Made by a program: the position numbers and the translations under genes. The notes below the pieces were generated by a model. The model saw only the letters and a list, made by a program, of their open reading frames with translations, was not told the origin of the DNA and searched no databases. A DNA stretch of 52,458 nt from Pirellulales bacterium (GTDB lineage: Bacteria > Planctomycetota > Planctomycetia > Pirellulales > JACPPG01), in the NCBI GenBank assembly GCA_036490175.1, contig DASXEJ010000268.1, forward strand, positions 1 to 52,458. Direction: 5' to 3'. The number at the start of each line of letters is the position of its first letter. Position 1 is the stretch's first letter. Below are positions 44,319 through 49,196 of the stretch, piece after piece.

Positions 44319-44651
44319 CGTCGCGCGATGGCAACACGGCGCGCCATGCCTATGGGTCGGGCCATTGTTATCGGCGCGCCGACTGGAGACAGCCGCGGGG
44401 CCGGGACAACGTTCCCGTAGCTCACGCTTGCCAGTAATGGACGGCAGGCAATTCACCGATATTGCCGGCAAAAGTCCGGCATTTACCCCTGTATCGCCCC
44501 CTTCCCAATCCTCTGCGGTGGGCTAAGCTTTTATGTTGCGTCCTGTTGGGTCGCCTCCTTTCTGGCACGAAGCCTATCGGCGGCCCTGAGGTTCGGGATG
44601 CCCCGCGTCGAACGCCTCCCGCTCCCGTTCCTTCCGACGAGGCCCACACAG
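44319..44651. other. intergenic spacer upstream of the aldolase
   Basis: About 333 bases between the propeller gene and the DapA-like gene. No convincing gene or promoter was seen. Confidence 0.45.
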
Positions 44652-45674
44652 ATGGCCGGCGACAATCGCCTTCGTGGCATCTTTACACCTAATATCGTGC
44701 CGCTCGATGCGCGCGGCGACATCAACGAGCCCGAGCTGCGCCGCTACACCGATTGGTTGATCGAGCACGGCGTACATGGCCTGTATCCCAATGGGTCGAC
44801 CGGCGAGTTCAACCGCTTCACCGTCGAAGAGCGGCGTCGCATCATCGCGATCATGGTGGATCAAGCGCGCGGCCGGGTGCCAATCCTGGCTGGCGCCGCC
44901 GAGGCCAACGTCCGCGAGACGATTGCCGCCTGCGAATATTATCACGAGCTGGGCGTGCGAGCGGTGGCGATTGTTTCGCCCTATTACTACAAGCTCAGCC
45001 CGCCGGCCGTGTATGCCTACTTTCGCGAGATCGGCCGGCACACGCCGGTCGACGTGACGCTCTACAACATTCCGATGTTCGCTTCGCCGATCGACGTGCC
45101 GACCGTGCAGCGTCTGAGCGAAGAATTCGAGAAGATCGTGGCGATCAAGGATTCCTCGGGCGATTTGCCGCACATGATCCGCATGATCGCGGCGGTGCGT
45201 CCCAATCGGCCCGACTTCAGCTTCCTCACTGGCTGGGACGCGGCGCTGATGCCGATGCTGCTAATCGGCTGCGACGGCGGCACCAACGCCACTAGCGGCG
45301 TCGTGCCCGAAATCACACGCAAGTTGTACGACCTGACCACCAGCGGCCGACTGGACGAAGCCCGCGAGCTGCAATACAAGGTTGTGCGGCTGTTCGACGC
45401 CATGATGTATACGGCCGATTTCCCCGAAGGCTTTCGCGCCGCTCTGTCGCTGCGCGGCTTCGAGCCAGGCGTGGGACGGCAGCCCATGTCTGAAGGACAG
45501 CAGATCGAGTTATCGACGGTGCGCGACACGTTGCAATGCCTGCTGGCTGAAGAGGGCTTTACGAATGAGCCGATTGGCGGCTGTCCGGCGACTGGCCGCG
45601 TTGATCCAAAAGCCGTGAGCCAGATCGTGCAGGGAGTGCTGGCCGAACTCAATCGCCGCGGCCTGGCGAATTGA
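44652..45674 (+). CDS. DapA/NAL-family aldolase or lyase
   Basis: A 340-aa class I aldolase of the dihydrodipicolinate synthase / N-acetylneuraminate lyase family. [16 protein letters not shown] starts the barrel; [16 protein letters not shown] is the GxxGE loop; [16 protein letters not shown] carries the conserved Tyr; YNIPMF follows; and the Schiff-base Lys is in VAIKDSSGD near 166. Members split or make 2-oxo acids with pyruvate (4-hydroxytetrahydrodipicolinate, sialic acid, 2-keto-3-deoxy sugar acids). Length exceeds true DapA by about 40 aa at the C-terminus, and no lysine genes are nearby, so a catabolic lyase is favoured. The start ATG 44652 ([11 protein letters not shown]) is chosen over an upstream one. 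Confidence 0.85.
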
Positions 45675-45699
45675 GGCTATCGGTAGCGGAGAAGAGAAC

Positions 45700-45768
45700 A
45701 ACCACGAATCGCTCGAATTGGACGAATGAAGAAGGCCAGCGTGTTCCCATTCGTGTCATTCGTGGTTT
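45700..45768. repeat. inverted repeat of the CCACGAAT type
   Basis: The arm AACCACGAATCGCTCGAAT near 45700 pairs imperfectly with ATTCGTGTCATTCGTGGTT near 45750. Elements of this type (CCACGAAT...ATTCGTGG) are scattered in many bacterial genomes, from memory. No ORF or flanking duplication was seen. Confidence 0.6.
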
Positions 45769-45824
45769 CGACGAATTTGGCCATCGATCGAGAGAATTGA
45801 ATTGCAGGGAACTGAGAAATATTT

Positions 45825-45852
45825 GCCACAGAGGACGCCGAAGTCACAGAGG
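45825..45852. repeat. CACAGAGG-type dispersed repeat fragment
   Basis: GCCACAGAGGACGCCGAAG is followed by TCACAGAGG, so CACAGAGG occurs twice 19 bases apart. This is typical of short intergenic repeats in planctomycetes, from memory. Confidence 0.5.
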
Positions 45853-45993
45853 TAGAAGTTCGAGATGGAAACTGGCGGCACGCGGTCAATGGTGAATGCC
45901 ACTTACTCGTTGCGACCGCTTCTTCCTCACTATCCTCTGAGTACTCAGTGGTGAAATCTGTCTTCGGTATTTCGGATTGACGCGCAGTATTTC

Positions 45994-46773
45994 ATGGCTC
46001 GGAAAAAAGCAAAACCTTCTGCTGCGGCGGGTCGAGCGCGCAATGCCGCGCGCGGGCAGAAGCCTGCCGCTAGCCGGCCGCCGCGCGTACGCCGGGTGGC
46101 GGCTGCTGCAAAGCCAATCGTCCCTGAACCAGCTTCCAAGCTGGAACAAAAGTCGTTGCCGCCCCACGACGGCCTGAGTATCGCACTTGTCGAGGTTGGC
46201 AATCTGACCCCGGCCCTGGTCGTGGCGGATCGCTGCGCCAAGTCGGCCGGTGTGCATATCCTGGGAATCGAAAGCACCGACAGCCCGGTGCAGTGCATCA
46301 AACTGGTCGGCCGCGCCGCCGACGTCCGCGAAGCGGCCGAACAAGGGGCCGAGCTCGCCCGGCAGATGGGCTCGACCTGCATTTGGACGACCATGCTGGC
46401 GCCCCTGGCGGCAACCCGCGCGCTGGCCGAACAACCACCCGCCTACAGTCCGCTGCTGGACGCCTACGACTCACGCAATCCTTTGGAGAATCACATGAGC
46501 AGTTCCGACGCCATCGGCCTGATCGAGACGCAAGGGCTCGTGGCCGCGTTACACGCCACCGACGACATGCTGAAATCCGCCAGCGTGCAACTGGTGGGCA
46601 AGGAAAAGATTGGCGCAGCCTACGTGACGATCGTCATCCGCGGCGACGTCGCGGCCGTGCAAGCCGCCATTGCCGTGGGCAAAGACACGATCGAACGCTT
46701 GGGCGGAAAACTGATCATGGCCGACGTTATACCTCGACCGCACGCCGAGCTGGCTGCGCTACTGCCGAAGTAA
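45994..46773 (+). CDS. tandem-BMC-domain shell protein (BMC-T-like) with basic N-terminal tail
   Basis: A 259-aa bacterial microcompartment shell protein. Residues 1-57 form a basic, Ala/Pro/Lys/Arg-rich, probably disordered tail (MARKKAKPSAAAGRARNA...). The first BMC domain (about 58-145, LSIALVEVGNLTPALVVADR) is divergent. The second (168-259, AIGLIETQGLVAALHATDDM, ELVGKEKIG-like core, VTIVIRGDVAAVQAAIAVG) is canonical. BMC-T proteins trimerise to a hexamer-like tile. No other shell genes are in the window. The start at ATG 45994 has no good ribosome binding site, while an internal ATG at 46495 (residue 168) has GGAG 6 nt upstream and could yield a separate 92-aa BMC-H-like product. Confidence 0.9.
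   Translation: MARKKAKPSAAAGRARNAARGQKPAASRPPRVRRVAAAAKPIVPEPASKLEQKSLPPHDGLSIALVEVGNLTPALVVADRCAKSAGVHILGIESTDSPVQCIKLVGRAADVREAAEQGAELARQMGSTCIWTTMLAPLAATRALAEQPPAYSPLLDAYDSRNPLENHMSSSDAIGLIETQGLVAALHATDDMLKSASVQLVGKEKIGAAYVTIVIRGDVAAVQAAIAVGKDTIERLGGKLIMADVIPRPHAELAALLPK
46485..46497 (+). promoter_or_regulatory. internal Shine-Dalgarno and start codon inside the BMC gene
   Basis: GGAG at 46485-46488 is followed six bases later by ATG at 46495-46497, in frame, at the exact boundary before the canonical second BMC domain (MSSSDAIGLIETQG). Translation from here would give a 92-aa single-BMC protein ending at 46773. Confidence 0.5.
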
Positions 46774-46809
46774 GGGGCAATTGAGGGACGGCACGAGGTG
46801 TCCGATCTA

Positions 46810-47448
46810 CTAGTCCACGTACCACTTGCCGTGAACTTGTCGAAAACTGACTACTTCTGAAAACGACCCCTCTCGTGTGATCTGTCGCGTTGCACCGGTA
46901 ACAGGATCGGACTGGGTTTCAACGACTTGAGTGGTGCCGGTGCATTTCGCGCTCGCCGTTGCCCCTTCCCTCGCGATACTTGTCAGGTCGCGAACAATGA
47001 TCACCGACGGATTGTTCGCTTTGGCGATATAGTTGTGGGCGGCCACGTAGAGTTCAAGCTTGTTCGTCGCGCTTTTAGCGACGCGCGCTGCAATCGTTGG
47101 CATCTCCTTGATCAGTCGCTTATTCTCGTCGTCGGTCCAATTTCGATCGAATTCCTCCCAATGGACGTCATACTTTTTAACAATCGCCCGCAGCGCTTGG
47201 TCTTTTGAAGTGCCCGCTTGCAGCGCGACGTGCAATACTTCGCGCTCGTGGCGCTCGTCGGTGAAGAGAGCAAACAGCGCTCGGCGATCGGCGTCGTTGA
47301 TAGCCTTTTTGTAGGCGGCGAAGGCGGCTTCGGGCCATTCGTGCCCGACGTTGCTCTGTACGTCCACAGCATTTGAATTGGTGTGCGGCGCCACGAGCAA
47401 GAAGGTTGCAGCGGTCAGGTATTGGATAATAAACGGGCTCCGGCGCAT
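46810..47448 (-). CDS. secreted protein of unknown function
   Basis: A 212-aa protein with a signal peptide (MRRSPFIIQYLTAATFLLVAPHTNSNA). The mature part starts with a helical segment similar to DUF-type stress or lipoprotein regions (HEWPEAAFAAYKKAINDADRRALFALFTDERHER) and ends with a beta-rich tail (SFSEVVSFRQVHGKWYVD), the latter like the NTF2-like or nuclear-transport-fold pattern. The function is unknown. ATG 47448 lies 8 nt after the kinase stop with AGG overlapping that stop, so it is likely the last gene of the regulator-kinase operon. Confidence 0.75.
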   Translation of the reverse strand: MRRSPFIIQYLTAATFLLVAPHTNSNAVDVQSNVGHEWPEAAFAAYKKAINDADRRALFALFTDERHEREVLHVALQAGTSKDQALRAIVKKYDVHWEEFDRNWTDDENKRLIKEMPTIAARVAKSATNKLELYVAAHNYIAKANNPSVIIVRDLTSIAREGATASAKCTGTTQVVETQSDPVTGATRQITREGSFSEVVSFRQVHGKWYVD

Positions 47449-47456
47449 GGACGTAC

Positions 47457-49196
47457 CTATATCAAAGCTTGCTCGTCGTTCGTGCTTGAGTTCGATACCG
47501 GCAGCAGCATCATGACGCACGTTCCCTGGGGCGTGCTGTCAATCTCCACCCGCCCGCCATGCGCGGTGACGATGCGCCAGCATTTTGACAGCCCGTTCCC
47601 CAATCCACGGCCGGCGCCGCGGCCGGAATAGAACGGATCGAAGGCGTGGCGGCGTACATCGGATGGTATGCCAGGGCCGTTGTCATGGACGCTGATTGCA
47701 ATGTGCCGTGATGGCGGCATATTGCACGACGCAGGGTGCTCTTCGGCGCCTCGTCTGTCGCGTGCGGGCTTGCCCCTCACCCTGCCCTCTCCCACGAGGG
47801 GCGAGGGTTCTGAGCCGTGCCGTGCGGCGATGGTTTCTTGGAATTGCTGCACACTGCAAACGATCTCGATACGGCCGCCGGGCGAGAGGGCATCAAATGC
47901 GTTTTCGCACATGGCCCGTAGTGCGACCTGCAATTGCGTGACGTCGGCGTGCAGCGCGGGAAGATCGCGCGGGCAATCGAAAGCGAGCGTAACGCTCTGG
48001 GCTTCGGCCCGCGTGGCAAGCTCGGCGACGACGGTTTCGATGGTTTGTGCGACGTTACATGGTTCCAGCCGCGGTTGCGGAGGCCGGGCAAATAGCATCA
48101 GGTCGGCGATCATTTCATGCACACGACGAGCCTGGGTGTTGATCACCGCCAGTTCGCGCCGTCGTTCCGGATCTTGTTCGTGCCGCAAAAACAACTGCGC
48201 CCGGCCCGAGATCACGGCCAGCGGATTGTTGATTTCATGACCGGCGCCTGCGGCAAACTCAGCCAACGATTCCAGCTTCTCTTCTTCGAGCCGGCGATCG
48301 AACTGCGTTTCCAACTCCACCAGCCGCGCGAACTTGGATGCCGTGTGGGCGAAGTTCTGCGCAGCAAATCCAGGCGACACAAGCCAACGCTGCCGGGCTG
48401 CTTCGGCGCGACTACCAATCTTGGCCGCATGAGCGGCCGTTGTCTTTGCCGACGGTTTTTTCCGCGAGGGAGCCTTGGACTTCGCCCGAGCGTTTGGGTC
48501 AGGCTGCTGCTTGAGCCATTCTGGCAGTGCCGCCACGCAGTCGGCCGTGCACCCGATCGCCCTGAGCCACTTCGGTGCGCCGTGCAGCAGCGCAACGAGA
48601 TAGCTGTGTCCAGAGTAAACTCGCCCGCGAGCCGCGGCTTGTTCGGCCGCGATGACGTCGGCAGCCGCCAGTGACGCCAGCTTCGCCGCGACAAGTGGCT
48701 CACCAGACTTAGCCCGGCGCGGCTGCCCATTTTCCGCGGGCCAATGCGCCACGAGCGAGGCGAGATTCGCAGCCAGCCAGCTGGCCAGTTCGTTAATGGT
48801 GGTCGCTTGCGACGAGCCCTCGCGAAGCCGCGACGGTTGGCAGACGGTCCACAGAGCGAGGGCCGGATCAAGCGCCAGGGCCTCGGCCAGTTGCTGGTGT
48901 GCGTGTTGGTCCGTCGGCTCGATCAACACCTGCAACAACGCTGCCGCCGTTGGCTCGGCCAGCGGTAGTCGGCAACTACAATCGCCAATCGATAGCGGCG
49001 GTAGTCGCTCGATCACGGGCCCACCATTTCGTACGACGGCGTATTGGTGAGATGGGGCCGCGCAATGGCAGGGCACTGGCACCACTCGCGTGGCACAGGA
49101 ACTGGCCTGGCAACACACTTGCGCACCAGCACAGGCGCAGCCATACCCGCCGAACGCGGTCCAAGCCGCTCGTCGCTCGACGATTCGGCCGATCAC
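47457..49196 (-). CDS. sensor histidine kinase with degenerate HDOD-like N-terminus
   Basis: A 579-aa soluble histidine kinase. The H-box FAAGAGHEINNPLAVISG holds the phosphorylated His320, the N-box is MCENAFDAL (Asn432), G1 is DNGPGI near 505 and G2 is GLGNGLS near 531. The N-terminal part (about 85-235) resembles a degenerate HDOD domain (LAEALALDPALALW, SYLVALLHGAPKWL, with LLHG instead of LLHD). The first 75 residues are Cys-rich (CACAGAQVCCQASSC). Between the N-box and G1, residues 461-497 are an extra loop encoded in part by a dispersed repeat. GTG start. It follows the HTH-REC regulator by 83 nt and is the likely partner. Confidence 0.88.
   Translation of the reverse strand: MIGRIVERRAAWTAFGGYGCACAGAQVCCQASSCATRVVPVPCHCAAPSHQYAVVRNGGPVIERLPPLSIGDCSCRLPLAEPTAAALLQVLIEPTDQHAHQQLAEALALDPALALWTVCQPSRLREGSSQATTINELASWLAANLASLVAHWPAENGQPRRAKSGEPLVAAKLASLAAADVIAAEQAAARGRVYSGHSYLVALLHGAPKWLRAIGCTADCVAALPEWLKQQPDPNARAKSKAPSRKKPSAKTTAAHAAKIGSRAEAARQRWLVSPGFAAQNFAHTASKFARLVELETQFDRRLEEEKLESLAEFAAGAGHEINNPLAVISGRAQLFLRHEQDPERRRELAVINTQARRVHEMIADLMLFARPPQPRLEPCNVAQTIETVVAELATRAEAQSVTLAFDCPRDLPALHADVTQLQVALRAMCENAFDALSPGGRIEIVCSVQQFQETIAARHGSEPSPLVGEGRVRGKPARDRRGAEEHPASCNMPPSRHIAISVHDNGPGIPSDVRRHAFDPFYSGRGAGRGLGNGLSKCWRIVTAHGGRVEIDSTPQGTCVMMLLPVSNSSTNDEQALI
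47773..47807. repeat. dispersed GC-rich palindrome inside the kinase gene
   Basis: The 35-base segment CCCTCACCCTGCCCTCTCCC followed by ACGAGGGGCGAGGG is an imperfect palindrome of the kind found as intergenic repeats. Here it is read in frame as PSPLVGEGRVRG within the histidine kinase, between the N-box and the G1-box. Confidence 0.65.

Follow-up and report, generated by a model that had tools for sequence, protein, structure and literature searches.

An internal start site conserved in planctomycete tandem BMC genes probably yields two shell proteins from one gene

The window considered here, a stretch of 52,458 nucleotides from a Pirellulales bacterium (contig DASXEJ010000268.1 of assembly GCA_036490175.1), carries a tandem-domain BMC shell gene which, to judge from comparison across its family, very probably encodes two proteins: a full-length tandem protein of 259 aa and a 92-aa single-domain protein initiated inside the gene (Table 1). 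Positions 46480-46497 read CCTTTGGAGAATCACATG, with six bases separating the Shine-Dalgarno (SD) sequence GGAG at 46485-46488 from the ATG at 46495-46497; the sequence of the domain junction is TTTGGAGAATCACATG. This ATG is in frame with the first ATG of the gene at 45994 (501 bases, or 167 codons, upstream), and the stop codon at 46771-46773 closes a product of 92 aa, the segment 46485-46773 being the 3' part of the 259-codon open reading frame and no separate gene. An earlier note on this DNA had placed GGAG and an in-frame ATG at the start of the second BMC domain, and the positions, the reading frame and the Pfam matches all agree with this. It had also claimed that the gene's own ATG lacks a good SD, which the anti-SD duplex energies bear out: +0.6 kcal/mol at the 5' ATG (45994) versus -6.4 kcal/mol at the internal site. 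The 3' end of the 16S rRNA in this genome is canonical, with a normal anti-SD tail (GGATCACCTCCTTT).

Table 1. Features of the tandem BMC gene and its upstream neighbour, in window coordinates
Feature	Position	Strand	Basis
Upstream DHDPS-family aldolase/lyase, probable cargo enzyme	44598..45674	+	PF00701, E 1.4e-59; conserved part from near codon 19 (44652)
Aldolase C-terminal amphipathic tail, encapsulation-peptide-like	45603..45671	+	Conservation
Tandem-domain BMC shell gene, full-length product 259 aa	45994..46773	+	Open frame; two PF00936 matches
Lys/Arg/Ala/Pro-rich N-terminal extension, 59 aa (MARKKAK...)	45994..46170	+	Common to L006 and L007
BMC domain 1, divergent (Pfam 1-64 of 75)	46177..46371	+	PF00936, residues 62-126, E 4.8e-10
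End of domain 1 and inter-domain linker with internal initiation site	46372..46509	+	RNA folding
Internal SD, GGAG	46485..46488	+	Sequence; anti-SD duplex energy
Internal start codon, ATG	46495..46497	+	In-frame start near here in 95/95 family members
Predicted short product, 92-aa BMC-H-type protein	46495..46773	+	Full-length PF00936 match
BMC domain 2, canonical BMC-H	46510..46740	+	PF00936, residues 173-249

The two PF00936 domains of the long product keep the profile order and are not permuted, which by domain content places it with the BMC-T^s proteins. The 92-aa part taken alone matches PF00936 over the full profile (1-75 of 75, E 2.2e-24), so that the predicted short product has BMC-H size, as previously proposed, and contains a complete domain. 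It also has the KAAN-like and (P/A)RPH interface motifs that are regarded as basal to BMC-H proteins (PMC8217296) and thereby qualifies as a BMC-H protein; in the window these motifs read MLKSAS and PRPH, and among 24 orthologues the lysine is invariant (MLKSA) and RPH nearly so. Domain 2 shares about 55% identity with EutM of Clostridioides difficile. For domain 1, the 24 close orthologues share 44-81% identity with the window gene, and among three congeners with dS of about 1 the dN of this domain is 0.09-0.17, giving a dN/dS of about 0.1-0.2. This indicates purifying selection on domain 1, meaning that the long product, and so probably both products, has been kept. An AF2 monomer model of both domains (pLDDT 88.7) is closest to the synthetic BMC-H tandem fusion 6ner (TM 0.79) versus a TM of about 0.4 for PduT, and the domain orientation taken from such a monomer model is weak evidence. 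The basic N-terminal extension is found only in this genus, other orthologues beginning at domain 1, and would be absent from the short product. Such a basic, probably disordered tail (45994-46170) is unusual on a shell protein.

To place the internal start in its family, an order-wide search of 396 genomes provided about 24 tandem genes close to that of the window and about 50 at a greater distance, and further members came from a scan of named genomes with a domain-1 alignment. The gene is present in two of four congeners, and members occur in bins named Schlesneria, Planctomicrobium, Pirellula and Thermoguttaceae. Removal of duplicates left 95 non-redundant genes from Pirellulales and other Planctomycetia, which fall into 75 clusters when domain 2 is grouped at 85% nucleotide identity. 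These genes were anchored on the domain-2 motif G-L/F-I/L-E-T-Q-G, and the presence of a start codon played no part in inclusion or exclusion. In every one of the 95, an in-frame start codon lies 5-12 codons ahead of this motif (76 ATG, 18 GTG and 1 TTG). The earlier note had pointed to orthologues that keep the domain but lack the ATG or SD as one way in which its proposal could fail; with the 18 GTG and the single TTG counted among the starts, loss of the start codon is seen in none of them, and the comparison thus favors the internal-start reading. In control 8-codon in-frame windows of the same genes, ATG or GTG occurs in 40% and an SD together with ATG or GTG in 6.4%, while 63 of the 95 genes have both SD and start at the domain junction. 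Apart from the window's own genome, no full-length tandem-family member turned up in a sample of 119 genomes from the phylum, and the family therefore appears confined to the class. No full-length relative was found in the plasmid collection.

A conserved methionine preceded by K/R-E-N/D might suggest that these residues are simply kept for protein structure, in which case the SD-like letters would be an amino-acid by-product and no initiation would occur at the site. In the close subgroup, to which the window gene belongs, the motif P-K/R-E-x-x-M is itself conserved and alone yields SD-like codons, a 4-nt SD being seen in 53% of sites versus 51% in synonymous shuffles. However, the linker around the conserved start codon is otherwise variable and in the distant group hardly alignable, yet a start is always present there, with M, V and L alternating as ATG, GTG or TTG. 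In this group, the codon at a distance of 9 from the domain-2 motif is ATG in 18 genes, GTG in 14 and TTG in 1, and valine or leucine is never encoded otherwise there. Across the five-codon stretch in genes without ATG, the valines are encoded by 18 GTG and 1 GTT, with GTG making up 32% of valine codons elsewhere in the same genes. That the valines at the site are GTG is a codon-level pattern and the strongest argument for an internal start.

The start codon also moves with insertions, a further point against the structural explanation: it survives linker insertions in L026 and L036-L038. In L053, the linker has been replaced by a longer, unrelated one, yet AAGGA and an ATG precede domain 2 (AAGGAATGGAAAATCATG). 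Two close relatives, L040 and L041, have TTG versus GTG at the same site, both after the same GGGAGA. Furthermore, the junction in a Thermoguttaceae-like group (L036, L037 and L038) holds two in-frame ATGs separated by five codons, except that L037, the sole gene in which ATC replaces the usual ATG, has lost the second and keeps the first, which has a GAGGA before it.

The PduT-type BMC-T^s proteins, which likewise have two non-permuted PF00936 domains per chain, provided a negative control. The same junction was examined in 21 PduT-like BMC-T genes of Planctomycetota (twenty from a phylum-wide search and one from G125). As a group, these genes differ from the tandem family in lacking the feature: ATG or GTG is present in 6 of 21 and accompanied by an SD in 1 of 21 (Fisher 3e-13 for the start codon and 1e-7 for SD plus start, tandem family versus controls). 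This too is at odds with a purely structural methionine.

The SD itself presents a more divided picture. In the distant group, 77% of sites have a 4-nt SD versus 46% in synonymous shuffles, a level reached by 0 of 500 shuffles, and the energy is -5.5 versus -4.0 kcal/mol. In the close group, the energy of -4.8 versus -4.0 kcal/mol is reached by 11 of 500 shuffles when all sequences are used and by 57 of 500 with cluster representatives, and the amino-acid motif P-K/R-E-N accounts for most of the SD. This is where the case is weakest: among the window's close relatives, the SD improves only modestly on what the protein sequence already dictates. The glutamate codons just upstream of the start in the close group nevertheless show a clear preference, with GAG:GAA at 31:6 versus 165:291 elsewhere; for cluster representatives only, the ratios are 20:6 versus 133:183 (Fisher p 0.0008), the p-values being upper limits on the strength of the evidence because related sequences are non-independent. 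In addition, the GAG codon of the internal SD is identical in three congeners although dS is about 1. On whether the SD is kept at silent positions, a check suggested in the earlier note, the two groups differ: in the distant group the SD lies well above the synonymous null, whereas in the close group, apart from the preference for GAG over GAA, it is barely above it. About a third of the sites in the 95 genes have no 4-nt SD match, and L025, L034 and L069 have hardly any SD. The excess over the null in the distant group and the GAG preference both run against the structural explanation, which we consider very unlikely overall.

Single BMC-H genes provided a positive control for start signals. 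The open reading frames L137-L148, which at first looked tandem, turned out to be normal PVM BMC-H genes with an upstream frame that reads through, and were rejected as family members; genes of this kind served as the controls instead. At the starts of authentic single BMC-H genes in the same genomes, the SD energy is -5.55 kcal/mol and an SD is present in 90%, while at the tandem genes' own 5' ATGs the mean is -2.3 kcal/mol and an SD is present in 30%. The internal sites (-4.8 and -5.5 kcal/mol) resemble authentic BMC-H starts in SD strength and exceed the tandem genes' 5' starts. The weakness of the 5' SDs suggests that more of the short form than of the long form may be made. The RNA around the internal site is also weakly folded, with 54-nt folding energies of -6.7 versus -16.3 and -7.6 versus -14.2 kcal/mol elsewhere in the gene, and it is more open than the gene median in all 95 genes; this weak structure may derive in part from the composition of the linker.

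Domain 2 resembles a complete BMC-H protein with its own N-terminus, and its methionine lies about where real BMC-H genes start, so one could imagine that the gene arose by fusion of two genes and that the SD and ATG of the second persist by inertia, unused. With a synonymous divergence of about 1 among congeners and protein identities down to 37-44% among family members, however, an unused start signal would have decayed, yet all 95 genes keep a start codon. The loci read included no family member in which separate genes encode the two domains. It is thus highly improbable that the site is such a relic. Alternatively, transcription might begin within the gene, and the short protein would be translated from this shorter transcript instead of from the full mRNA. 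This route would employ the same start codon and predict the same conservation; however, a scan of the region 45600-46900 for sigma-70-type promoters, the one type covered, found no promoter-like site, although planctomycete promoters are poorly known. We regard this route to the short protein as unlikely.

Under the preferred reading of two starts on one mRNA, initiation at ATG 45994 would produce the 259-aa tandem protein, of BMC-T type and expected to form a pseudohexameric trimer. Independent initiation at the internal SD and ATG (46485/46495), on unstructured mRNA at the domain junction, would produce the 92-aa BMC-H protein, an expected hexamer without domain 1 and without the basic N-terminal tail. 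Both products would then join the shell of a PVM-type (fucose/rhamnose) metabolosome whose genes lie on another contig, with the neighboring aldolase as an optional cargo module. Initiation itself, the relative amounts of the two products, their oligomeric states, their place in the PVM shell and the mixing of the short with the long form are what we infer from these comparisons.

PVM shells are known from fucose and rhamnose degradation via lactaldehyde (PMC4207490), and the main locus of PVM type lies on another contig of this genome (C303), where a family search found two BMC-H (PF00936) and three BMC-P (PF03319) genes clustered together. PduL, AckA (acetate kinase), AldDH (aldehyde dehydrogenase), a class II aldolase that ends in a C-terminal tail, and a DeoR-type regulator were recognized there by eye in the open reading frame list of L122. 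Because the tandem gene is on C268 and the main locus on C303, the tandem gene is a satellite shell gene of the PVM locus. Two genomes that seem to be without a PVM locus, G053 and G354, are draft assemblies, and this absence was not counted as evidence. At about 20 of the orthologous loci, the DHDPS-family aldolase is the neighbor of the shell gene. Its conserved C-terminal helix, which resembles an encapsulation peptide, reads IV-x-GVLAEL-x-RRG in the nearest orthologues and is looser in others. This enzyme is possibly a second aldolase feeding the PVM metabolosome; in our reading, the satellite module supplies the PVM organelle with an aldolase as well as two shell tiles. That the products of the tandem gene belong to the PVM shell seems somewhat more probable than the opposite. 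The PVM locus has other BMC-H genes, and the need for one more is not obvious. One tentative and rather doubtful thought is that BMC-T and BMC-H proteins in a ratio set by the two starts, together with mixed hexagonal tiles of long and short chains (for example, one long and four short), might tune the pores and cargo contacts of the PVM shell.

Dual products from one gene have several precedents. PduB/PduB' are two shell proteins from one BMC-T gene with a second in-frame start 111 bp downstream (PMC3836489), and the likeness lies in one tandem shell gene with two in-frame starts; however, the Pdu start trims only an N-terminal extension and leaves the trimer type the same, whereas here a whole BMC domain would be lost and the predicted tile type would change. 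In beta-carboxysomes, an internal ribosome binding site gives CcmM35, a C-terminal isoform of CcmM58 without the first domain (PMC8580825). This is again an internal site in a BMC gene whose isoform loses its first domain, but CcmM is a Rubisco scaffold and not a shell tile. In Cas8/Cas11 and Cas10d/Cas11, an internal in-frame start frees a C-terminal domain, which becomes a subunit of its own within that assembly (PMC11899642), although these are unrelated proteins of a CRISPR effector. Two-polypeptide phage endolysins, also unrelated, comprise full-length and C-terminal isoforms from one gene that may associate at a defined ratio, for instance 1:5 (PMC9430671). Dual starts as such are therefore known, and what appears new is a class-wide conserved internal start that would separate a BMC-T-type from a BMC-H-type tile. 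Searches of a collection of open-access papers turned up no account of internal initiation in a tandem BMC gene from planctomycetes.

The composition of a shell is normally regarded as set gene by gene. If the two-product reading is correct, two tile types would be tied to one mRNA, which would explain how planctomycete shells obtain both tiles from a satellite locus and would offer a natural one-gene route to mixed shells. Shell inventories compiled from annotated genes would then overlook a protein in dozens of genomes.

Finally, two features flank the gene. The intergenic region at 45700-45767 contains an imperfect inverted repeat with 23-nt arms (83%) and the sequence ATTCGTGTCATTCGTGG, which is found at 4 places in the genome and is possibly a small repeat element. 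Directly downstream, on the minus strand at 46810-47520, lies a gene for a 236-aa protein with no Pfam match.
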